This document shows positions 11,245-63,523 of a DNA stretch of 64,000 nucleotides, in pieces. The position numbers and the translations under genes were made by a program. Positions within the stretch are counted from its first letter, which is position 1; each line of letters opens with the position of its first letter. Where the stretch lies: positions 45,390,967-45,454,966 of the forward strand of contig OX578284.1 in assembly GCA_951217055.1 (NCBI GenBank), in the 5' to 3' direction. Under the pieces are notes generated by a model. It searched no databases and had not been told where the DNA came from. It saw nothing but the letters and a program-made list of their open reading frames with translations. This stretch comes from Gerris lacustris. Its lineage: Eukaryota > Arthropoda > Insecta > Hemiptera > Gerridae.

Positions 11245-11630
11245 TAATATAAAATTGAATCATTAAAACACCATTTCCGGAGATCAGAATCAATTTTTGG
11301 GTAGATTATTTTCTTCAAATACCTTATTTTAAGAGGTTTAATTCTTTTGAATCAAGCCCACTATTTAAGATTAAGCAGGAAGATATCTAAAGTCCTAAAA
11401 TATTTTATAGACTTGTACGAGATATTCCCAACAACACATTCTTATATTTACAACTTTATTTAGCCTGATCTGTTGATTATCACTGATCATTAACCTTTAA
11501 TAAATTTTGCACAAGAAGCTCTTTTATTAATTCTTTTTTTTCTTTAAGTTTATTAAGTTTTTTTTGATAACTAAAGAGGGTGAAATGTGTTATTTTTTAT
11601 AACACCAGAAGTGTTTTATAAATTTATTCA
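11245..11630. other. nothing recognised
   Basis: AT-rich spacer between two TA arrays. Confidence 0.5.

Positions 11631-11710
<80 letters not shown>
11631..11710. repeat. (TA)n array left of the ribozyme island
   Basis: About 75 bases of TA dinucleotides directly abut the GC-rich hammerhead island that begins at 11711. Confidence 0.95.
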
Positions 11711-11714
<4 letters not shown>

Positions 11715-12034
11715 CAGAGTAATACCGTGTTTTTGCACACTGCAATAGGCTACACAATTTGCGAGAGACACCAAGGGATGTGCCACGCAAGCGTGACACA
11801 TAGGAACTGTTCCAACATCAGACATAACGTCATTAAGATGTTGGCTCGGCATTATGCCATGTCCTGCATCGTTTCGTCGCGTCCGACTCATCAGGGGCCC
11901 GACGATGCCCACCCAACTCTGGACCTATACTACATCAAGAAGATCAGATATAGGACTTATCAGAGACGAGGGTGCTCTCATACCGCCATTCTTGCTTGGC
12001 TGGCAAAACACATCAGCAGAGTAATACCGTGTTT
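11711..12034 (-). mobile_element. 302-bp retrozyme-like unit with hammerhead ribozyme
   Basis: On the minus strand this is a full unit bounded by the same 22-bp sequence at both ends (11711-11732 and 12013-12034, period 302 bp). That is what insertion of a greater-than-unit-length copy of a circular or tandem RNA would leave. It holds one hammerhead core (11866-11908) followed by a series of stable hairpins. It has no protein motif. It is far richer in G+C than the flanks and sits directly beside (TA)n. Animal retrozymes (small circular RNAs with hammerheads, copied by borrowed reverse transcriptases) are the nearest described class. Confidence 0.6.
11866..11908 (-). ncRNA. hammerhead ribozyme, minus-strand copy
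   Basis: Read 5' to 3' on the minus strand: stem III GCATCGT, cleavage triplet GTC, GGGCCC, CTGATGA, stem II GTCG-GACG-CGAC, GAAA, then the closing stem III strand. All conserved core positions are present. Stem III is a perfect 7-bp helix (GCAUCGU/ACGAUGC) and stem II is 4 bp with a GACG loop. Cleavage would fall between 11901 and 11900. The topology is type III (stem III open). Stem I is only the palindrome GGGCCC with no loop, so it should pair with a second ribozyme rather than in cis. Confidence 0.8.
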
Positions 12035-12042
12035 CGGTCGGC

Positions 12043-12083
12043 CATCGTCGGGCCCCTGATGAGTCGGACGCGACGAAACGATG
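12043..12083 (+). ncRNA. hammerhead ribozyme, plus-strand copy
   Basis: Stem III CATCGT (12043-12048) with C17 at 12049; GGGCCC 12050-12055; CTGATGA 12056-12062; stem II GTCG/CGAC 12063-12074 with loop GACG; GAAA 12075-12078; closing strand CGATG to 12083. Stem III is 6 bp here because the next base is C instead of the G of the other copy. Cleavage is predicted between 12049 and 12050. Downstream of the core, three hairpins follow: 12092-12102 (GGCAT/ATGCC), 12106-12138 (CCAACATC/GATGTTGG) and 12151-12170 (GTGTCACGC/GCGTGGCAC). Confidence 0.75.
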
Positions 12084-12197
12084 CAGGACATGGCATAATG
12101 CCGAGCCAACATCTTAATGACGTTATGTCTGATGTTGGAACAGTTCCTATGTGTCACGCTTGCGTGGCACATCCCTTGGTGTCTCTCGCAAATTGTG

Positions 12198-12199
<2 letters not shown>

Positions 12200-12280
<81 letters not shown>
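12200..12280. repeat. (TA)n array right of the ribozyme island
   Basis: About 80 bases of TA dinucleotides abut the end of the inverted repeat. With the left array this makes the ribozyme island look as if it was inserted into, or seeded, a TA tract. Confidence 0.95.
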
Positions 12281-12282
<2 letters not shown>

Positions 12283-12671
12283 TGAAATGCGAGAATACAA
12301 TTATTATTTACATTTACCAGATACACTTTCGTTAAAACAATTAAGATTTTGAAATACATGAAAATAATTTTAATTTTTCTGCCTGCTTCTTTTATGCGTC
12401 GATCAATCCACATTAGAATATTACAGGACGGAGGAAAGATTTACTCATCTTGATGTAATGTTGAGAGCAAAACATGTCTAATCTCTCTGGGATTCGAACT
12501 AACTCGTAATCCTTACTGAGTGTAGCACTTAATTCCATTTTTGTTTACATACCCATAGAAGTTATCATTTTCGTTTGGATCAACACAACATAAGGATATT
12601 ACAGGACGGGAGATCGGCTATAATTTGACACATCCACTTAATGTAATCATTGATAATCAACGTAACATTTA

Positions 12672-13266
12672 ATTTTGTTTCCGAGTTTACCGAAGATAAC
12701 GGAAGCTATGCGATCGTTTTGAAGAAAACAATTATGTCTCCGATTTCAAAAATTCCAAGACAGAAATACGTTTCAGACATCCGGGAACATTTTTTGTTCC
12801 ATGTCTATTGGTCGGTCTGTCACTCAATTTTTGCAACCAACATATTTATATAAATAAAATCTAGAAGTCTGATATTAATGAAATTTGGATGTTAGATCAT
12901 AATTAGCTTATTGTTGGTCAAATATGAGTTTCAACCTTCTGCGCCCAAATGTTTCTCTTGAATATGCGTACAGACATACATTTATTTACACCTATATCTT
13001 CAAAAGTACTCCTCTGATTTTTGTGAAATTTGGATGGTTTGTAAAATGTAGCCTGTATTAATTATAAAGATTCATTTCAACCGTCTGCGCTCTATAAATA
13101 TAGCTAAATTGATATTTTAATTCATATAAAAAATCAAAACAATTTTTAAAAATTTTAGGGAAAATTAAATAAATTTGACAATAATAGGCTGTAAAAACAT
13201 AAAATCATTAAAGTATACGAAATAGGGCTCGAGGAAACTATGTTTCACAGTAATTGGCAGAGTATT
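12672..13266 (+). repeat. family A repeat, copy 1
   Basis: This copy opens with the (G)CTTCCGAG...CGGAAGC mini-hairpin (here TTTCCGAG, partly decayed). Shared blocks follow: TTCAAAAATTCCAAGACAG, the GTCTGTCTG-type words, CATATAAGTTTCAACC-like, ACATACATTTATTTACACC, and the right end AATTGGCAGAGTATTT. Ten copies of this family occur in the window in both orientations. No protein is encoded. Confidence 0.85.
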
Positions 13267-13870
13267 TCGATATTGAAAAATCCTTTTTACTGCGTAAGTT
13301 TTATCCAAACATTATACTTTCTAGTAACAATGGTTCGGGCTTACAGCCCTCCCACCCATAAAAGATCTATAATAAAACACAGTTATATCATATATTGTAA
13401 CTTATTTTTAAACTTCAAGCTTCTTGTCCAAATAGTTGGAGAGATTTTGTAACCATATACATAGTTCACGAAACTAGTCGCCATCTTGAATTAAAATGGC
13501 GGATCAAATCCCTACTTAGTAAAGATCAACATCATTAAAGCAACCTTTTTAGCAAAATTCGTCAATCCAGGGTAAAAAAAAATGAATTAGTCGCCTTCGA
13601 TTCCCCACCAGGGTGACATTATTTTTATACTAAATTTTAAATAATAAATAAATGTAATAATAGAACTATCAAATAAACATGGAAGAAAAACAAAAAAATT
13701 ACATATAAATAAAAATTAAAAAAATAAATTAAATTATATATAAATAAAAAAGTTTACTACAAGTTTTATTGGACAGATGTTTAACTTCTGTGATAAAAAT
13801 TACTCTTTATATTATATTAATTTAAGTGACATCATTAAAAAAAAGTCCAGTCATGCACCATGACTTAATG
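13267..13870. other. nothing recognised
   Basis: AT-rich sequence. A short piece near 13466-13500 (CTAGTCGCCATCTTGA) resembles part of the retroposon inserted at 56859-57152; otherwise empty. Confidence 0.45.
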
Positions 13871-14452: not shown

Positions 14453-15190
14453 CGTATAAAATATTGCACGACTATTAAAATACTGCGTTGAAACTTGATC
14501 TTTTAAACAAATTTATTCTGAAAAAGTCAAAGTCGTAAATATCACAAGGATAAAGAGGTCTCCAATAATTTCAATTCTCACTTACTCCAAATTTCGTGTC
14601 GGGAGTAGTGATAAACGAGTTGGCAATTTCATCCCGAACACACGGCCAGTTGAATTTAAATAAAATCGTGTAAAAAAGAATTACAGCCCAAGTATATACT
14701 ATACGTACAACAAAACGACTCATGGTAAAATAAAAGTCGTATTGTTTCCATCTATACTTAACTTTAGACTCCAAAGGCTAAATATCAAGTAAGAAATCTT
14801 AATTTATCAACAAAAAAAGATCAGATACACACAATAAAAACTACTTGAATCAAATTATAAATAAAATACGACACTAAATCTACTAAACAATTAATTTTAA
14901 AAGTCAATTTAAAGATATACATATATATAAAGGGAGAAATTCCTGTATTTAATTTGCTGAATGAAAATTCCTTGTGCCTACACAGTTTTAAATGAATAGT
15001 AATGAATAAAAAAAAATAAGGATGTGAAATACAGTGTACATTGAAACATTTCGGTGTGATATATTATTTAAATTTAACAACAATAAAGCAGTTTTAAATA
15101 AATAAAAAAAAAGGTGTTAGGAAAAATATATAGTTTCTTTTATTGAAGGAAAATTAAATTCTCCTCCTTCACAAAGTCAATTGCTATTTA
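14453..15190. other. nothing recognised
   Basis: AT-rich sequence without a supportable feature. Confidence 0.5.
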
Positions 15191-15194
15191 ACCT

Positions 15195-15735
15195 TTTGAA
15201 AAACGAAAAATGTCTTCTATTTCAAAAATTCGAATGCAAAAATCCGTTTTAGACATTAGGGAACATTTTTAGTTCCGTGTCTGTCGCTCAATTTGTGTGA
15301 ACCATCATACCTAAAAAACTAAACTATACGTTCGATTTTAATGTAATTAGTATGGATTAGCCCCATTGTTGATCCCATATAAGTTTCAACATTTTGCGCC
15401 TATTTGTTTATCTTCCACTTGCACACAAACATACATTCATTTACATCTATATCTTCAAAAGTACGCTTATCTGATTTTTATGAAATTCGGATGGTTTGAC
15501 GAAAGTAGATCGTAGATAGCCCTAGAAATTTCAACCGTCTGCTCTCTTTCAGTTTTGATAAATTGATATTTTAATTTTTGTAAAAAAGCAAAACAATTTT
15601 GACAGATTTAAAAAACAAGGGGGAAAATAAATAAATTTGACAATAATAGGTTATAAAAGCATAGAATCATTAAATATATGAAATAGGACGCGATGAATCT
15701 TTGTGCCACACTAATTGCGGCACTCACTTGTTCTA
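15195..15735 (+). repeat. family A repeat, copy 2 (5' truncated)
   Basis: It starts inside the family at the AAACGAAAAATGTCT...TTCAAAAATTC block and ends in GTGCCACACTAATTGCGGCA, the diverged right end. The left hairpin end is missing. Confidence 0.8.
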
Positions 15736-26680: not shown

Positions 26681-26774
26681 GTTATTATTGCCAATATGTA
26701 TACTGTTTACTTTTTCCCGGGTTTTTCTTTAAAAAATAGTCAATTTTGAACTAATTTGATTGCATTTATTATTG

Positions 26775-27410
26775 TTTTTTGCTTCCGAGCTTAACGAAGG
26801 TAACGGAAGCTATGTGATAGTTCTGAAGAACGAAAATATTTTGAGTTTCCGATTTCAAAAATTCCAAGACAGAAATCCGTTTCAGACATCAGGGAACATT
26901 TGGTTCCATGTCTCTCTGTCTGTCGTTCAATTTCAACAAGTCTTAAAAACTACACGTCCAATTTTAATGAAATTTGAATGGTAGGCCATGATTAGCCCAT
27001 TGTTCGTCCCATATAAGTTTTAACCTTCTGCGCCTACTTGTCTCTCTTCCACATGCGCACAAACATACATTTATTTACACCTATAGCTTCAAAAGTCCTT
27101 ATCTGATTTGTATGAAACTTTTATAGTTTATCGAAAGTAACCCACAGATATCCCAAGATTAATTTGAACCATCTGCGCTCTTTACTTTTTGCAAAATTGA
27201 TACTTTAATTCATGTGCAAATTAAAATAATTATTTTGACAGATTATAAAAGCGGGGAAGGGAAACATTTAAACAAAATAGACAATAATGACTTGTGGCAG
27301 CGTAAAATAAATTAAGTTAAGTACGTAAAATAATTACGTACTTAAAATAATTAAGTACGTAATAAGATACGAGGAAGCTATGTGCCACACCAATTGGCAG
27401 TCTATTTTTT
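26775..27410 (+). repeat. family A repeat, copy 3
   Basis: A nearly full copy from GCTTCCGAGCTTAACGAAGG to CACCAATTGGCAGTCTATTT. The left end forms a GCTTCCG/CGGAAGC hairpin. A local palindrome of GTACGTAAAATAATTACGTAC type has grown near 27322-27362. The 74-codon frame inside is part of the repeat. Confidence 0.9.
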
Positions 27411-33159: not shown

Positions 33160-35611
33160 TCAAGAATATGTTTCTCTGCTCTCTGCAGGTACTACAAGCT
33201 GTGAAAGAAGTAAAAGCAGTTGTGGGGGTAGAGGTGTTGTGCTGAGAAGCCAGACTAGAGAAATAGTTGACCGAGTCAGGCAATATTTTGAGAATGAGAA
33301 GAAACTAATTAATCGAGGCGTCGAGGACATTAGAGAAGCAATTCCTTTTGACAATGTCCTTAAAAGAACCAGTGAGGCCACTGGAATCAGTGTGAGGTCC
33401 ATCTTAAGAGTGCACAAAGAAATCAGTGTTGCTGAAGAGCAGGGCAAATCTGTAGTTACCCCTGGAAAGAAGAGGCCCAGGGAAAGTTTCAAAGGGATGG
33501 ATTCCTTTGCAGAGGATGCCATCAGAAGGCATGTTTACGACTACTTTTCAAGGAAAGAATATCCCACGCTGAATAAGCTGAAAGTTTCATTAGCTGATAC
33601 AGGCTTATTCGAAGGATCTGTTTTTACAGTTAACAAGTTAGTATTAATTTGATGTATTAAAATAATATACTAAAATATGATATGGAGCAAACGGTGTTGT
33701 CAGAATTATAATAAACACAATAAGTCTCACCGCAAACATACAAAAAAAAGCATAGTATCATTCAACCTAAATAGTAAGAGTGGGGAATAAAACATGCAAC
33801 AAATTTAACATATTTGTATACAGTTATATTTTTCTATAAAATGTTCAGGCTCATATGCATAAACTGGGGTTTGAGTATAAAAAAATCAATAGCCGGAAAC
33901 TCCTGATGGAAAAACCCGAAATAGCTGCTGCTAGAAGCAGGTTTTTGAAAGAGATTGTAAGGGAGGATTGCAACAAAATAGTTTGGCTTGATGAGACCTG
34001 GGTCAATGCTGGTCATGCCAAAAGTTGAGGCTGGACTGACAACACTAAAGCTGGCACATCACTTGTTCCAGTTGGAAAAGGTAATGTTCTTACTTTCTTT
34101 TTTAAAGAACTACTAAGTGAATTAGTTAAGTAAAGTAATATGTTTATTATTAACAATAATAATAATAAGAAAGATACAACAACTACAAGAATTAAATGGG
34201 GAGCTGAAGGCAGAGAAAGCTGTATAGATCTGTTTCAAGAACAGATTTATGCAGTTGTTTACAGTGTGTAATTTTTTAATTAAGTACAATTAAATGTAAG
34301 CAATTTCATGGAAAAGTATTATTTGCATGTATGTGACTTGGAAAATCAAACAAAGCTCATACCATTTCAAATCATAGACTTTGATAGAATGTTGTTGATA
34401 TTTTAAAATTATAAATGAGATTTCATAACTACTACATGATCTCTTTACTACATCATCTCAAAAAAAAATAGAGCTATAAAATATTGCATGGTATAAGAAT
34501 CAGTTAATTCAACAGTGGAATAATTTGTGAGGATACTTTCAGAAACGGGCCTCCTCACATTTCCTGAAAATATGACTTCTACTTCTTATAATAAAATTAG
34601 CATTAGCTGTAGTGAGTAAACTTTGTCGGGTATTGTTGTAGTTGTTGAAACTCGTTTATTAGCAAACTAATAGCTGATAGAGACTGGCATTGTTGTCAAT
34701 AACAGTTTTCGATTAAACATACCCACTTTCTAATGTTGGAAAAAGTAAAAAAAGAAATCTGGTTATAAGATTTGAATCTGAGAAACTTGCAGATCCTCAC
34801 ATCTTATCTTCTACATTCTGTAATTTTTCATATTATAATTTGAAACATATTTCTTCTGTTGCAGGTAAAAGGCTTATCCTCCTGCATGCTGGTATGGCAT
34901 CGGGTTGGGTCTCCAACTCCTGCCTTTTATTTCAATCTAGTAAAACTGGGGACTACCATGAGGAAATGAATCACGAAAGATTTTATGAGTGGTTCCAGAA
35001 GCAACTGTTGCCAAATATTCCCAAGGAGAGTGTCATTGTTATGGACAATGCACCATATCATTCAAAAGTTATGAACAAATGCCCCAATTCCACCTCCTTA
35101 AAAGCACAAATGCAAGAGTGGCTACGAGAAAATAATATAGACTTTGAAGAGAACTATACAAGGGCCCAACTTTTAGAGCTCATAAATTTACATAAACCTG
35201 TAAAAAAAATTATTTTGTGGATGTTAAGGCCGAGGAAAGAGGGCACAAAGTCATAAGACTGCCTCCTTATCACTGCCACTATAACCCTATTGAACTAATT
35301 TGGGCTCAAGTGAAGGGTTATGTGGCAGATAAAAATAAAAAATTCACCATTAGAGAAGTGGAAGCATTGACCCGTGAAGGTATTGAGAATGTCACGGGTG
35401 AAAACTGGTCGCGATGTGTCCGTCATGTGTGGAACGTCATTAATGAGGACACTAGTAGAGAGGCCAGGCTTGATGAAGACATTGACAGGTTTATTATAAG
35501 TCTAGGAGGAGGTGACAGAGAGACCGATGCATCAACTGAAGAAGAAGACAGTTCAGAAATTGACGAACCAGAAGATATCTCTGAAGATATAGAAGGAGTG
35601 TTTCCTTTATA

Positions 35612-38315: not shown

Positions 38316-38732
38316 TGTCATTATCAGTGAACTTATCAGTAACAGGTCTGTACTAATTATTTATTAATCAAGAATTTTATTAACTAACAGTAAGTTTCAT
38401 AAAAACTCAGTAGTAGGCACACATATCATTTTTTGTAAGAAAATACTATCAAATAAATTTGAATTATACATTAAATCATTTTAATTTCTATTGTTCTTGT
38501 GAGAACAATTATTTATCGTAAGCTATTTGAAATAGAATGGTTAAGGAAATATAAGTTTTTAATTAATTAAAAAATTGGTGAAAGTCACAATTGACATAAT
38601 ATATGGGTTCTTTATAATAAAAACCGCAGTTAACTTAATCTGACCAAATACATGCTTATTTTCTACAATATAACATAGACAAAAAGTTCAAATGGTGATA
38701 ACCAACTACTTGAAGTGCAGTATATATTAAAA

Positions 38733-39326
38733 TAGTGTGCAAATTAGTGTGACACATATCCTCGCGTCCTATTCCGTATACCCTATCGAATTTAGGCTTT
38801 TGTTAACCTATTATTATCAAATTTATTTAATTTCCTCCCCGTTTTTTAAATCTGTCAAAATTGTTTTGATTTTTTACACGAATTAAAGTATTAATTTAGC
38901 AAAATTTAAAGAGCGCAGACAGTAGTAATTAATCTCGGGCTGTCTGCGGTCTACTTTCGACAAACCATCCAAATTTCTTAACAATCAGATGCGTATTTTT
39001 GAAGATATAGGTGTAAATAAATGTATGTTTATGCGTATGTGCAAAAGATAAAATTAGGCGCAGTAGGTTGAAACTTATATGGGACCAACAATGGGCTAAT
39101 TATGACCTACCATCGAAATTACATAAAAATCAGATGAGTAGTTTTTAAGATATGTTGGTTCACAAAAATTGAGTGACAGGCCGACAGACAGACACGGGAC
39201 CAAAAATGTTCCCTGATGTCTGAAACAGATTTCTGTCTAGGAATTTTTAAAATCGGAGACATAAAAATGTTTCGTTCTTCAGAAGGATCACATAGCTTCC
39301 GTTACCTTAGGTAAGATTGGAAGCAA
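38733..39326 (-). repeat. family A repeat, copy 4
   Basis: A full-length copy in reverse orientation, from GTGCAAATTAGTGTGACACAT to CCTTAGGTAAGATTGGAAGC. All the main family blocks are present. Confidence 0.9.
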
Positions 39327-39589
39327 TAAGAAATACAAATTTACAAGACGTAAAGTAAAATTTTTTATGTGTAAAATAATATGTGTGTAAATAATTTCAA
39401 ATTATTAGATGAAAATATAAAAATAAAAATTTAAGTAAGTACGTAATAAGATATTAAACCTCAAGCATAAATAAAAATAGACTCTAATTGTTAATTATTT
39501 TTAATTGTTTCCCCCGTTTTTTTTAATCTGTTTTTAAAAAAAAATGTTAAAAAAAAGTTAAAAAATTAACTTATTGTTAAAAAATTGTT

Positions 39590-40134
39590 CGTTCTGATGA
39601 ACGAACAATTTTTAGGTCTTCAATTTCAAAAATTCCAAGAAGGAAATCAGTTTCTGACATCAGCGATCATTTTTGGTTCCGTGTCTGTCTGTCGGTCTGT
39701 CGTTCAATTTTTGCGAACCAACATATCTTAAAAGCTACTCGTCCAATTTTAATGAAATTTGGGAGGTAGGTCATGAGTAGGCCGTTGTTGATCCCATATA
39801 AGTTTCAACCTTCTGTTTCTCTTCCACATGCGCATAAACATACATTAATTAACACCTATAGCTTCAAAGGTACTTATCTGATTTGTATAAAACTTGTATA
39901 GTTTATCGAAAGTACCACGCAGATAGCTCCAGATTAATTTGAACCGTCTTCGCTCTTTAACTTTTGCTTAATTGATACTTTAATACAAGTAAAAATCAAA
40001 ACAATTTTGACAGATTAAAAAAACGAGAAAACAATTAAACAAATTAGATAATAATGGCTTGTAAAAGCATAAAATCAAAAAGTACGTGATAGCATGTGAG
40101 GAAGCTATGTGCTACACCAATTGGAAGTCTATTT
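39590..40134 (+). repeat. family A repeat, copy 5
   Basis: The left end is replaced by a small GTTCGTTCTGATGAACGAAC palindrome. The remainder follows the family to CACCAATTGGAAGTCTATTT. Confidence 0.85.
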
Positions 40135-40320: not shown

Positions 40321-41410
40321 TATAAATTTGTCTTAAAAAATGAAAATATAAAAAAATGCATAGTGATGATGCAAGAGAAGAAATGAAGATGAAGTGTTCT
40401 GTTATTTTGTTTTTTTAACTAAAGAAGAGTTTCAAAAATCGATGGTATGCACATTCATTTATAGGAGATAGTGAAAAAACAAGTTGTAAGAATAAAGCAT
40501 TTGAGAATGTAACAAATGGTTTTGATCGAGTAAGTCTTCACTAGCACTTAATATCCAACTCTATTAAACTCTATTGTATTGGCTAAACTAGCCTCTCTCC
40601 CTCTATTTCATATTAAATGAACAGCGACAAAACCCTAAACTAGAACTTACCCTTCCAATAAAGGACAATGAATATGAACTGGGTTCAATACAGCCATCCC
40701 TACAAGGATAACTAGATTTTCAAAACCGTATCACCGAACTTATAGGGTGCTTAACTTCTCTCTATTCAATGCGGTCCATTCCCTTGCTAGCCCTTTTTCC
40801 ACAAAAACAAATTGACTTTAGGGCTCGGATTGGAAATGGAGAAGAAAAGGGAGAGCAGAAAAATGCGGTGGCACTAGTCCTATGATGACAAGGGAAGGTT
40901 CTATAACAGAGAAGGGTATCTCCAGCTGCCTTTCTGACGAAATAAGGGCCGGAACATACAAACCAAAAGGGACACAATATCACTTTTAACTTCTAAAAAT
41001 CCTTAAACTATATACTATTCCCTTTATACTTTCCCTTCTGTACTTCCTACCAAAAAAAAAAAAAAAATACTAACAAGGACGTCATTGAACTACTGAAGAC
41101 TAAACTTCTAAAGTCAATCTGGAGCAAAATAAGAACTTCAAAGAAATAAAAAGGACCGTCTTTCCCTAAACATAACAAGATATATAACAATACCTTTAAA
41201 CACCTTCTGTACCTCTAACAATTCATTTTGACACATTTTTACGAAAAAAGATTGACATTAACGACTATATAAACTTAACTAGTCAAAGATTCTTTTGAGA
41301 CCTTTTATAAAAAGAAGGAATTCTTCTGCAAAGTATAAAAGTCAAAAGTTAATATTAAAGATAATAGAATGTTTATCTAAGAAGATTAAATTTTTAAACA
41401 TTATCAGGTA
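40321..41410. other. nothing recognised
   Basis: AT-rich, somewhat purine-biased sequence. No frame with a recognisable motif. Confidence 0.45.
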
Positions 41411-41412
41411 TA

Positions 41413-43565
41413 CAGGGTGTCCCAACTTAAGTCTGCCAAAAAGAAGGGGCATATAGGGGACCCCAAAAGGAGTCAAAAATGTTATATTAACCTATGTCCT
41501 TTCGGGCTTTGTTTTCTGACTGGCGCCATTTTTAAAAATTTTGGGCTAAGCTTATTTTTTTACACTTAAACAAGTGTATCTCGAGAAAAAAGCGGGATAG
41601 ATCATCATTTTAGGTATCATTGAAAACCTAAAAACATTTGCTAAAAGAAATGTTATTATCAATTTTCATTTATTTTTATTCCTTCTAGTTCAAATTTAGC
41701 TCAAAATGTCTTTTTTTTAAAAAATCAAAAAATAAAGAAATTTTTGACGGCCCATAGTGCTTAAACTAGTTACATCTTGAATTGTCCAGGTAATGGAAAA
41801 ACTTCTTTATTTAATAACCTTTTCATGGATACCCATATTTTTGTATGTTAAATAGGGAAATTTTTACGTTATAGGCACATTTATTGAAAAAAACTAATGT
41901 AAATATGAGAAAAAATTACTTAAATTTAACATCTCCTCTTTTGAACGGTATAATCATTTGACTTGACATAATCATAATCACTTTCAAAGTAAATGTGTGA
42001 TGAAATAACTATTGTTGACTATTTCTAGTAGCCTGGAGTATGACCAATAAAAGGGTGGGGGGGGGGGGGGGCACCTCTCCCTCTTTTAAATAAGTATACA
42101 AAATTAAAAATTAAGGCAGAAAATGCTTTTTTTACTTTAAATCGAATTCTAATTATCATTAACTACCGGAGATATACAAAGAAAAATAGACCCCAGCATG
42201 GGGACCCCAGCTTGAACCACGGGCCTCCTTATTTTTATTTTATAAAAGAAAAAACAAACTTTTAGCGGAAAATTAAAATAAGGATTAACAAAAGGTAATA
42301 ATAAGAAACAACATTAACAATAACAACAACATTTAAATACCAACTACTTTGTGATTATGATTAAGTCAAATGATTATACTGTTCAAAAGAGGAGAGATTA
42401 AAGAAAAAGTAATTTTTTCTCACATTTACATTCGTGTTTTTCTACAAATGTGCTAATAGCGTAAAAAAATTTCTATAATCATTTGACTCGACTAATCATA
42501 ATCACTTTCAAAATAATTTAGTATTTCAAAATAGTTAGTATTGAAATGTTGTTTTTATTGTTAATGTTCTTTCTTATTATTACCTTTTGTTAATCCTTAT
42601 TTAAATTTTCCGCTAAAATGTTTACTTTTTCTTTTATAAAATAAAATTGTTAAAAATGTGGTTATTATTTTTACTGTTAGGTATTTGAAAAATTTTAAAT
42701 TCTGCTCCTCCAAACTCTTAATATCTTTATTAAATAAAATAAAAAGCAGTTTTCAGCTTTAATTTTAGGTTACATGCTTTTGTATACTTATTTACAAGAG
42801 GGAGAGGTGCACCTCTCCTAATGATAATTAGAATTCGATTTAAAGTAAAAAAAAGCAGTTTTCAGCCTTAATTTTTAATTTTTAATACTTATTTAAAAGA
42901 GGGAGAGGTGCCCCCCCCCTCCCCTGTTATTGGTCATACTCCAGGCTACTAGAAATAGTCAACAACAGTTATTTCATCACACATTTACTTTGAAAGTGAT
43001 TATGATTATGTCAAGTCAAATGATTATACCGTTCAAAAGAGGAGATATTAAATTAAAAGTAATTTTTTCTCATATTTACATTAGTTTTTTTTCAATAATG
43101 TGCCTATAACGTAAAAATTTCCCTATTTAACATACAATAATATGGGTATCCATGAAAAGGTTATTAAATAAAGAAGTTTTTCCATTGCCTGGACAATTCA
43201 AGATGTTAACTAGTTTAAGCACTATGGGCCGTCAAAAATATCTTTATTTTTTGATTTTTTAAAAAAAAGACATTTTGAGCTAAATTTGAACTAGAAGGAA
43301 TAAAAATAAATGAAAATTGATAATAACATTTCTTTTAGCAAATGTTTTTAGGTTTTCAACGATACCTAAAATGATGAGCTATCCCGCTTTTTTCTCGAGA
43401 TACACTTGTTTAAGTGTAAAAAATAAGCTAAGCCCAAAATTTTTAAAAATGGCGCCAGTCAGAAAACGAAGCCCGAAAGGACATAGGTTAATATAACATT
43501 TTTGACTCCTTTTGGGGTCCCCTATATACCCCTTCTTTTTGGCAGACTTAAGTTGGGACACCCTG
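41413..43565. mobile_element. 2.15-kb near-palindromic element with CAGGGTGTCCC ends
   Basis: CAGGGTGTCCCAACTTAAG at 41413 returns inverted at 43565, with TA on both sides (41411-41412, 43566-43567). Arms of ~680 bp (41413-42090 and 42890-43565) match closely. Inner blocks also pair (e.g. 42110-42160 with 42790-42880, and 42230-42350 with 42510-42645). It has no transposase frame, so it is a non-autonomous foldback of the TA-inserting type. CAGGGTGTCCC is a familiar start for mariner-like MITEs. A G tract at about 42057-42070 lies in the left arm, with a C-run counterpart at about 42911. Confidence 0.9.
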
Positions 43566-43567
43566 TA

Positions 43568-44500
43568 TAGTATTATCAGTAAAATAAATACAGACTATTC
43601 TATATTCTAAAGGATTGATTCGAAGTTTCTTCCTTAACTTATTTCATCTTGAGGATGGAAACTTAAAAGTAGTACACGTTAAGTTGTGTTTTTATAGTAA
43701 ATTGAAATGCTACAAACCCTAAAATTTGGTTTAGTTTAGATATTCACCTACGTCAAATGTTATTAGTAAAATAAATATACTTTTCTCCTCGGCATTATTC
43801 AATCATAGTATGGTAGCAAAGATAAATAATAGAGTAAATATATAAGATAAGCCATGAACATTTATTTTCAAAGCATGTATTTCCAAGATATCGAAATGCT
43901 TTAAGGCTAATTGCAAGTTTATTTTAGATTTAGGGCGATGTCAGATGATATTAACTCGCCACATCAGAGCTCCCTTCTATATTTGGTCCCCTAACCCGTT
44001 CTATGAGTCTTCATCATTTACCTCTATTGTCCATGTCGATGACATGCCGCAGCCGCAGTTATCACCCCCGCATATTAGTTTCCCTTTTCGCCCCACTATA
44101 TGTTCAAAATATCATTTATCTATAATTAAATTTAAATATTAAATGCATTTAAATTATCAGAGACGTTTTTCTTATTTTACGCTTCGCGTTTTTAAGACCA
44201 CGCCTTATTACTAAAAACAAATTGTAGACATATCGATTAAGCAAGAAAGATTTATTAAAAGCATTAATATTAACTCATAACTGAATTATCAGTACTGGAA
44301 ATTGAATTTACATAAAATAACTTTTGTAAAATAAAATTAACATAAATAAACTTATACATTTTTAATAATAGATCAATTCAACATTCTAATCGATAGTAAA
44401 GATAAGCTTGATCATTAAGGATTTATACTTGTACAATATCGCAGACAAAAACAATAGGTAAGCTCCTCAATAGCATTGATATTATGAATCAGAGTGTACA
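43568..44500. other. no supportable gene
   Basis: A proline-rich 65-codon frame at 43945-44142 overlaps a second frame starting MSDDINSPHQSS at about 43938. Either could be an exon scrap, but no family or splice structure was recognised. Confidence 0.3.
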
Positions 44501-56397: not shown

Positions 56398-57234
56398 TTG
56401 CTTCCGAGCTTATCGAAGGCAACGGAAGCTGTGATCGTTCCGAAGTACGACAGACATCAGGGAACATTTTTGATTCCGTGTCTGTCTGTCAGTCTGTGTC
56501 TCAATTTTTCCAAACCAATATATCTTAAAAACCTCATCTAATTTTATTAAAATTTTTATGGTAGGTCATAATTAGCCCATTCTTGGTCCCATATAAGTTT
56601 CAACCTTCTGCGCCTATTTGTTTATCTTCCACATGCACACAAACATACATTTATTTATACCTATATCATCAAAAGTACTCATCTGATTTTTATGAAATTT
56701 AGATGATTTGTCGAAAGTAGCCTACAGATGGCCCCAGATTAATTTCAACCTCTGCGCGGCATTAAACTTTGCTAAATCGATACTTTAATTAATGTAAAAA
56801 ATCCAAACAATTTTAGAGTTTTTATAAAACGGAAAAATTAAATAAATTTGACAATAATTTTTTTTTTTTTTAAACCAAGCTTTTATTCGTATTCTTCTCT
56901 GCAAACCCTTTTATTTGATACCCATGTCATGGGGATGCTTAAAAAATAACTAGTCCGCCATCTTGGGCTGTCCTCCATATTGCATTGAGAATGACATCAC
57001 TTAGCTAAGCATGCATTGTCATCCAAACTAAACGTGTATGCAAAATTTCAATTCAATCGGTTGAGGATAACTGCTTTAAAATTCAGTTGCAAGATTAGAC
57101 CCGAACATACATACATACATACAAACATTGCAAGTTTAATAAAAGCTTGTAAAAATAGGTTTAATAGTATATAAAATCATGAAGTATAGAACGGGAGGAA
57201 GCTATGTGATACACTAATTGGCAGAGTATTTTTT
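56398..57234 (+). repeat. family A repeat, copy 8, split by a retroposon
   Basis: From GCTTCCGAGCTTATCGAAGG to CACTAATTGGCAGAGTATTT. The copy is continuous with the family up to GACAATAAT at 56858 and again from about 57153. The intervening part is foreign. Confidence 0.85.
56859..57152 (-). mobile_element. SINE-like retroposon inserted in family A copy 8
   Basis: On the minus strand it runs from ACAAGCTTTTATTAAACTTG to GAATAAAAGCTTGGTTTA followed by a ~14-base A tail. The interior includes (TATG)n, CAACCGATTGAATTG and ATGGCGGACTAG. The A tail and sharp edges suggest reverse transcription. The ends also form a short inverted CAAGCTTTTATT pair. A short related piece occurs near 13470. Confidence 0.6.
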
Positions 57235-62299: not shown

Positions 62300-62770
62300 G
62301 GTAAATTGGAAAAAATAAAAAATAATAAGTAAGGAGTGGACTTACTCTATAGTAAATTACTAAACCACAATAAATAATTTATCGTAAATATGTATTATTT
62401 GCAATTTTAAAGCTGGTAATACTATATGTTACTTTCAGATGCCGATATAGTTACGCATAGGCGCCATATTTAAATGTATGGCTTTATATTTACAAATGTA
62501 ATGTATTTTTATAATGATTCATGGCGCCAGTATTTCATTGAAATTTAATAATAGGTATAGGCATTAATGGTCTTACTTTAAATATTTGCCCGAAAAGTTT
62601 ATACGGTGGTATTTTAATCATTCTTTAAAATATTACATTATTATTTAATTATCTGCTGGATTTTTAAAAAAATTATGTAATATTTGAATGAGCAATTAAT
62701 ATAAAATAATAATTTCCGCATTCAATACAAGATAAAATGCACGAAAAAAGAAATATCTGTAAAGAATATA
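61821..62770. other. nothing recognised; T tract at 62262-62294
   Basis: AT-rich sequence with a homopolymer T run of about 33 bases and no supportable gene. Confidence 0.5.
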
Positions 62771-62772
62771 AT

Positions 62773-63358
62773 TTTGCTTCCGAGCTTACCAAAGGTAACG
62801 GAAGCTATGTGATCGTTCTGAAGAAAGAAAAATATTTAGGCCTCCGATTTCAAAAATTCCAAGACAGAAATCCATATCAGACGTCGGGACTATCTTGGTT
62901 TCGTGTCTGTCTGTCGTTCAATTTTTGCGAACCACCATATCTTAAAACCTACACGTCCAATTTTAATGAATTTTAGGTGGTAGGTCATAATTAGCCCATT
63001 GTTGGTCCCATATAAGTTTCAAACTTCTGCGCCTATTTGTTTCTCATCCTCATGCGCAAAAACATACATATTTTTACAACCTATAGCTTCAAAAGTACTT
63101 ATATGATTAGAATGAAACTTTTATAGTTTATCGAATGTAACCCGCAGATAGCCCCAGATTAATTTGAACCATCTGCGCTCTCTAACTTTTGCTAAATTGA
63201 TACTTTAATTCGTGTAATAAATCAAAACAATTTTGACAAATTAAAAAAAAACGGGGGAAACAATTAAACCAATTAAATAATAATGGCTTATAAAAGCATA
63301 AAATCAATAAAGTATAGGATGCGAGGAAGCTATGTGCCACACCAATTGGCAGTCAATT
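62773..63358 (+). repeat. family A repeat, copy 10 (best full copy)
   Basis: From GCTTCCGAGCTTACCAAAGG to CACCAATTGGCAGTCAATTT, with all family blocks in order. The 79-codon frame within is an artefact of the repeat. Confidence 0.9.
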
Positions 63359-63523
63359 TTGAATAATTTCAAATTATTAGCCAGTTGCAATTTCAAATTA
63401 TCAAGAGCAACATTTTGTGCAACGAAAAAACTATAATAAAGACTTTAAATCAAGCAACAAGCAAGGAAAGTTTAAAAACAGTTTGTTCAATTACTCGCAT
63501 AATCATGACTAAATGGCCGTACA

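Follow-up and report, generated by a model that had tools for sequence, protein, structure and literature searches.

The two inverted hammerheads of the window (the whole 64,000-nt stretch of Gerris lacustris DNA analysed here) lie in a 490-bp insertion at 11710-12199, between (TA)n runs; the insertion is a copy of a non-coding element with a unit of 302 nt, which is probably a retrozyme. The island is most likely a retrozyme insertion with a loop-less type III hammerhead, moved by Penelope-like elements (PLEs). In fuller terms, we consider it likely that a non-autonomous, non-coding 302-nt hammerhead retroelement was mobilised by the PLEs of the same genome through two-ended copying. The main value of the element is the record of two-ended priming in its copies. 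The parts of the insertion are given below, with U1 as the base after the predicted cleavage point and the unit sequence read from the window's left arm.

11630-11709, no strand: left target flank, an AT run, nearly all (TA)n.
11710-12034, minus strand: left arm, U191 to U1 (11710-11900) and U302 to U169 (11901-12034), an exact match to the unit by construction; its outer end is the start site U191 and its sense strand is the minus strand.
11866-11908, minus strand: type III hammerhead core with a stem III of 7 bp and predicted cleavage at 11901/11900 (RF00008, 42.6 bits).
11895-11900, minus strand: stem I of the minus core, the loop-less palindrome GGGCCC.
12003-12034, minus strand: most of the predicted AC-rich stem-loop (U200-U169, from a fold of U130-U215) containing the start site U191.
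12035-12042, no strand: arm junction, eight bases matching neither arm.
12043-12199, plus strand: right arm, U296-U302 (12043-12049) and U1-U150 (12050-12199), an exact match to the unit; its outer end is the start site U150 and its sense strand is the plus strand.
12042-12084, plus strand: type III hammerhead core with a stem III of 6 bp and predicted cleavage at 12049/12050 (RF00008, 39.9 bits).
12050-12055, plus strand: stem I of the plus core, the loop-less palindrome GGGCCC.
12200-12280, no strand: right target flank, an AT run, nearly all (TA)n.

The earlier note, made from the letters alone, had claimed two complete inverted hammerhead cores at these places, and both alignment to the Rfam model and direct reading confirm this. 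Each core carries the conserved words GTC, GGGCCC, CTGATGA, GTCG-GACG-CGAC and GAAA, the stem III lengths that the note gave for the minus and plus cores are borne out, and its cleavage points are right by direct reading. Its argument that the cores are beyond chance is supported by their matches to Hammerhead_3 (RF00008), with E-values of 6.8e-8 for the minus core and 4e-7 for the plus core (cmscan, 11600-12300), and by their position within 160-nt inverted arms that differ by one mismatch. The alignments span model positions 1-54, the full model length, in both cores; the conserved core positions, stem II, stem III and the UH before the cleavage point all agree with type III. Hammerhead_3 is the only hammerhead family reported between 11600 and 12300 up to an E-value of 10 (best of the clan shown). 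The covariance search that the note had proposed does find both cores, but at the Rfam gathering score nothing is reported for the window because 42.6 and 39.9 bits fall under the 48.5 bits set for this family. Searching the 64 kb on either strand for CTGANGA, a hairpin with 3 bp or more and GAAA turned up these two cores and no further one. The 302-nt spacing is also real, being marked by a 23-nt direct repeat at 11710 and 12012; the unit, however, overlaps its own next lap, and there is no second full unit. The open frames in the island, on frame reading alone, are mostly read from TA runs, in agreement with the note's statement that it is not accounted for by a protein gene. The inverted orientation is the usual form of the element's two-arm insertions and is not special to this locus.

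Stem I of both cores consists of the self-complementary hexamer GGGCCC, which is the only sequence between GTC and CTGATGA. The RF00008 alignment has no letters at the loop end of stem I, and the closed stem I with a loop that belongs to type III was found in neither core. A complete core of this kind therefore need not mean a stand-alone ribozyme; with a palindrome that lacks a loop as stem I, two ribozymes probably share this stem and work together as a dimer. In energy predictions, two 49-nt hammerheads co-fold at -41.9 kcal/mol, as against -15.1 kcal/mol for each monomer, into a dimer that has both cores, in which GGGCCC pairs with GGGCCC as a common stem I and stems III form between strands; the best monomer fold differs from the hammerhead fold (-15.1 versus -12.8 kcal/mol). 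Only GGGCCC and GCCGGC, among 20 orderings of the hexamer, keep the predicted dimer. For a 355-nt RNA with two hammerheads, the hexamers are predicted to pair together and stem III to pair across, with stem II formed in only one of the two cores in the best fold. Substitutions inherited by both arms appear weakly depleted in the hammerhead motif, as 2 of 41 fall in its 43 nt out of 302 (about 6 expected) and 1 of 41 in the core. Dimeric hammerheads of PLEs have reportedly been described by Lunse et al. in 2017. According to PMC7229834, dimers are the acting form of those type I hammerheads of amphibians in which helix III is weak and has a palindromic tetraloop; the present element would apply this solution to helix I.

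A genome search with the 490 bp showed that tandem arrays of 302-nt period are dispersed through the 937-Mb assembly. The element thereby has what marks animal non-LTR retrozymes, a hammerhead within dispersed tandem repeats that are non-coding and a few hundred nt long. The longest stop-to-stop frame over three laps of the unit has 132 codons, and a frame for reverse transcriptase plus GIY-YIG nuclease is absent from the 302-nt unit. With up to one mismatch, a 33-nt stretch of the core occurs 3,350 times in the genome (reversed-pattern control, 0), and a 33-nt stretch of the unit body 865 times (control, 0). Spacing and order of neighbouring cores were taken from the first 100 listed cores, all on contig C1, where 22 same-strand neighbours are spaced by 302 (7), 301 (5), 307 (3), 308 (3), 317 (2), 314 (1) and 309 (1) nt; the core therefore seems common to subfamilies with other bodies. 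Arrays with the same core and repeat lengths of 307, 308 and 317 (C1 8956406-8957359, 39775487-39776798 and 43142616-43143282) are apparently sister families. When stem I and six stem II/loop positions were left free in the pattern, 83 of the first 100 places were listed exact 33-mers, and GGGCCC is present at 182 of 186 GTC(6)CTGATGA sites in the sampled loci. Two core patterns searched in viral_contigs have no exact match there.

In two-arm arrays the minus-strand arm comes first and the plus-strand arm second, each made of head-to-tail units that diverge from a central junction, with the sense strands outward and the 3' ends at the flanks. Core neighbours up to 1.5 kb apart (33 pairs among the 100 listed cores) comprise 16 plus-plus, 11 minus-plus, 6 minus-minus and 0 plus-minus pairs. 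As the table of two-arm arrays took minus-then-plus clusters only, orientation there is by construction, and the orientation claims rest on the arrays of the genome search, on loci L051-L070 and on core-neighbour order. The outer ends are U150 and U191, start sites 41 nt apart, and terminal inverted repeats ending at the same element position were not found. In the genome, U150 adjoins TA 229 times and U191 285 times (control, 0 for each); U191 lies inside a predicted AAAACAC/GTGTTTT stem-loop (fold of U130-U215). Among 60 arrays measuring 200 bp or more, 31 are flanked by TA runs left and right under a strict measure, the others being mostly near-TA or with TA on one side.

The outer ends are paired by kind. 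The exact ends listed for C1, for C2 and, up to 64 Mb, for C3 form 32 facing pairs no more than 8 kb apart, and 31 of these combine a U150 end and a U191 end, with U191 on the left in 16 and U150 on the left in 15; the remaining pair is 191/191, and none is 150/150. Independent ends would give 44-50% mixed pairs, and at the listed frequencies at least 31 mixed pairs would arise with p about 1e-10. In (TA)n the two 3' ends are identical in sequence, which agrees with U191 and U150 lying on the left about equally often. Ends without an exact partner in the list number 67 at U191 and 17 at U150. The same pairing is seen in 20 loci chosen only for a 150 end on C1 (L051-L070), of which 4 are single-arm and 16 two-arm, 14 of them mixed and 2 with one unclassed end. 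Under an arm-length cut the two-arm figure is 13 mixed of 15, again with 2 having one unclassed end, the array lost being L063 (two-arm, mixed), whose 17-nt arm falls below the cut. A larger, partly biased set of 51 two-arm arrays comprises 42 mixed, 3 191/191 and 0 150/150 arrays and 6 with an unclassed end, after duplicates had been dropped (L005, L006, L010, L013, L016 and L026-L030). Since L001-L025 were picked as the best matches to the 490-bp window element, which could favour mixed ends, the pairing claim rests on the C1-C3 end list and on L051-L070. The one-of-each start rule was not found in print in the open-licence literature searched. Among single-arm arrays, L039, L043, L054 and L056 have their inner end a few bases at most from the other start (U148, U145, U189 and U190, respectively), unlike L038, L047, L059 and L060.

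The inner ends follow no such rule, as the unit position of one arm at the junction bears no relation to that of the other. The classed arms of L031-L070 range from 68 to 2,362 nt with varying unit numbers, and 31 junctions from these loci include 11 overlaps of 1-4 nt, 7 blunt joins and 13 with 1-24 extra nt. An excess of junction microhomology was considered and dropped, 11 overlaps of 31 standing against about 25% one-sided overlap by chance. Likewise, an apparent stop hot-spot of inner ends at the cleavage point (26 of 102 inner ends in 51 arrays, p about 1e-5) was rejected as a selection effect because 20 of the 51 arrays (from L001-L025) had been matched to the window element, which itself stops at the cleavage point; the other 31 arrays show 8 of 62 (p 0.30).

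Array-specific variants are found in the units of both arms and, in many arrays, in all units of both arms. With positions up to 4 nt from segment ends left out, the arms of 50 arrays share 88 non-reference states versus 13.8 with shuffled partners; the counts are 17 versus 1.4 for 30 arrays of L031-L070 and 14 versus 2.8 for 14 arrays of L051-L070, and none of 2,000 shuffles reached the observed value in any set. Variants common to both arms indicate that a single kind of template was used for the two arms of an insertion, and a small circular template explains the shared variants best. In the single-arm array L039:1103-2656 the units nearly alternate between two variants; a dimeric circle as its source was rejected, as the alternation is imperfect and unequal exchange would give the same. 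Flank repeats outside microsatellites are clear at two loci, ACACTAATTA at L015 and AAATATTTTTA at L037. These duplications of 10 and 11 bp are, like those of animal non-LTR retrozymes, longer than 4 bp. Among the eight arrays with non-TA flanks on both sides, these two have a clear flank repeat, three are ambiguous and three have none.

A candidate enzyme source is present in the same genome. Out of 1,680 first-look candidates, 150 scored GIY-YIG matches lie over the cut-off, and their frames reach 900 aa. In the one copy sampled, RVT_1 is matched (E 4.5e-11) within an open stretch of 350 codons upstream of the nuclease; the named relatives of this reverse transcriptase are from animals. These GIY-YIG matches are PLEs, though not necessarily each of the 150. 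Nuclease neighbours within 9 kb (n=20) form 16 minus-plus, 3 minus-minus, 1 plus-plus and 0 plus-minus pairs, and the PLEs of the genome thus display the same divergent order as the 302-nt element. Five of seven sampled PLE 3' regions carry, by eye, a minimal hammerhead-like core ending GAAATATA(G/A)CC (L071-L075), and a TA run follows the 3' region of L073. No sequence similarity was found between the unit and these seven 3' regions, so the PLE link rests on architecture. By eye, the inverted PLE pair L078/L079 may carry a tail on one side only.

The two-ended pattern fits the published biochemistry of PLEs in vitro. The Poseidon protein PAc from Anolis cuts and extends both strands of AT-rich DNA in vitro, and its reverse transcription starts internally, at two adjacent sites in an AC-rich stem-loop, with no difference in start site between strands (PMC11167929). 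The stretch between the Poseidon starts corresponds to the 30-40 bp tail of some genomic copies, and hammerhead mutants had no effect on insertion in vitro, where unprocessed RNA was the main substrate (PMC11167929). In Adineta, Penelope copies are arranged head-to-head, only one of the two inverted pLTRs carries the tail, and the duplications measure 8-10 bp (PMC3846280).

On this basis, array transcripts would be cut by the type III hammerheads in a dimer paired through GGGCCC-GGGCCC, perhaps helped by protein, and the units would be circularised as in known retrozymes. A PLE reverse transcriptase/GIY-YIG nuclease would cut both AT-rich strands about 10 bp apart, a stagger suggested by the flank repeats at the two clear sites. 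Each 3' end would then prime copying of the same RNA, one at U150 and the other at U191, and each copy would cover less than one lap or as many as several; the joining of the two cDNAs mid-way would leave arms that diverge from the junction. The ends, their pairing and order, the junctions, the shared variants and the flank repeats are seen directly, and we infer the PLE as the enzyme, the circle and the order of steps. Starts 41 nt apart (about 30-40 nt in PLEs), divergent arms, TA flanks and duplications of about 10 bp fit insertion by a PLE enzyme. More tentatively, and at slightly less than even odds, we suggest that insertion may be one concerted event in which the PLE enzyme, perhaps as a dimer, holds both 3' ends of one staggered break on the two starts of one small ribozyme-made RNA and both copy. 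If true, such an event would explain the frequent head-to-head inverted PLE copies with a one-sided tail, and it goes with a hammerhead dimer that shares a palindromic stem I, a counterpart of the known dimers sharing stem III.

Inverted arms could also arise by self-priming, if one cDNA or an antisense template snapped back and copied itself. The arms do differ little from each other, in L052 the unit position at the junction is identical for the two arms (30/30), as snap-back predicts, and self-priming has been suggested for the head-to-head PLE copies of Adineta (PMC3846280). Snap-back, however, joins nearly adjacent unit positions and lets the first end set the second, so the unrelated inner coordinates and the pairing of a U150 with a U191 outer end argue against it; we regard this reading as very unlikely. 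Scarcely credible is an inverted-repeat DNA transposon (MITE) or satellite DNA with a hammerhead by chance. Such an origin would agree with inverted arms, short flank repeats and tandem units, but the two ends are different unit positions rather than mutual terminal inverted repeats, arm lengths and unit numbers vary, and the insertions are dispersed.

Two further alternatives concern the template and the ribozyme. A linear multimeric transcript may have served as template instead of a circle, with the remaining two-ended model unchanged; unprocessed RNA is the dominant PLE substrate in vitro (PMC11167929), and multi-unit arrays could be transcribed as such. Array-specific variants in all units would, however, need a homogeneous source, which a circle provides at once, and we hold the linear template to be a serious but rather doubtful option. 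The hammerhead itself may be an inactive relic carried within the unit, to which the loop-less stem I, the scores below gathering and the non-hammerhead best fold of the monomer (-15.1 versus -12.8 kcal/mol) would correspond. We think this unlikely, as the 33-nt core outnumbers an equal-length body stretch by 3,350 copies to 865, GGGCCC is kept at 182 of 186 sites, shared variants in the 43-nt motif are fewer than expected (2 of 41 versus about 6, a weak signal), and dimer-dependent hammerheads are known (PMC7229834).

Two-ended priming has a counterpart in LINE-1 twin priming, where a single RNA is primed by two DNA 3' ends and an inversion results. Twin priming is an occasional by-product with a variable internal start, whereas the two-ended form is usual here and uses two fixed starts. 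The resemblance to PLEs, as described in PMC11167929 and PMC3846280, comprises the AT-rich target, two internal starts 30-40 nt apart, an AC-rich stem-loop, extension of both strands (in vitro in their case), head-to-head inverted copies and duplications, theirs of 8-10 bp. Unlike PLEs, the 302-nt element has no protein coding and no pLTR, and the near-strict rule of one start of each kind per insertion counted here goes beyond the PLE reports.

As a hammerhead element, it resembles in layout the animal non-LTR retrozymes of Cervera and de la Pena 2020 (PMC7229834), which likewise consist of non-coding tandem hammerhead units (about 170-400 nt) with a GC content below 50% and, when present, duplications of more than 4 bp. 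It also shares weak-helix hammerheads with the amphibian retrozymes, dimer-acting there and predicted to be so here (PMC7229834). However, the ribozymes of animal non-LTR retrozymes are of type I with a weak helix III, whereas that of the present element is of type III with a weak helix I, and the part of PMC7229834 drawn on here makes no mention of an inverted, head-to-head or microsatellite layout. Plant LTR retrozymes have type III hammerheads and a proposed circular RNA intermediate (PMC7229834, PMC7761336), but their units are 600-800 nt long and lie between LTRs, whereas the present unit has 302 nt and an LTR layout is absent. Beyond plants, type III cores are described for termite and toad HDV-like RNAs and for dipteran genomes, with a helix I longer than usual, in contrast to the loop-less helix I found here (PMC7936874).

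For PLE insertion, cutting and extension of both strands in vitro and two starts have been seen, their combination in one event being left unstated. An abundant 302-nt passenger in a palindromic target supplies a simple in vivo record, with two fixed starts, nearly always one of each, and one template type per insertion. The one-of-each start count is what is added to the published PLE scheme. The element also presents an abundant type III hammerhead with a weak helix I, a form missed here by the Rfam cut-off; a published screen that required contacts between helices I and II might also miss such hammerheads (PMC7229834).

Several other repeats are found elsewhere in the window. Inverted arms of about 750 nt, 96% alike, lie at 41409-42161 and 42819-43569, and a 1.3-kb stretch at 59272-60612 matches its reverse complement at 77%. 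Copies of a dispersed repeat, about 400-600 nt long and 73-84% alike, lie at 12667-13273, 15183-15729, 26770-27317 and 38724-39334, and further ones at 39586-40134, 56451-56858 and 62766-63365. Finally, two overlapping plus-strand frames at 34717-35253 and 35196-35609 have weak DDE_3 matches below the cut-off (E 0.00056 and 1.8e-5, respectively) and are probably one broken DDE transposase.
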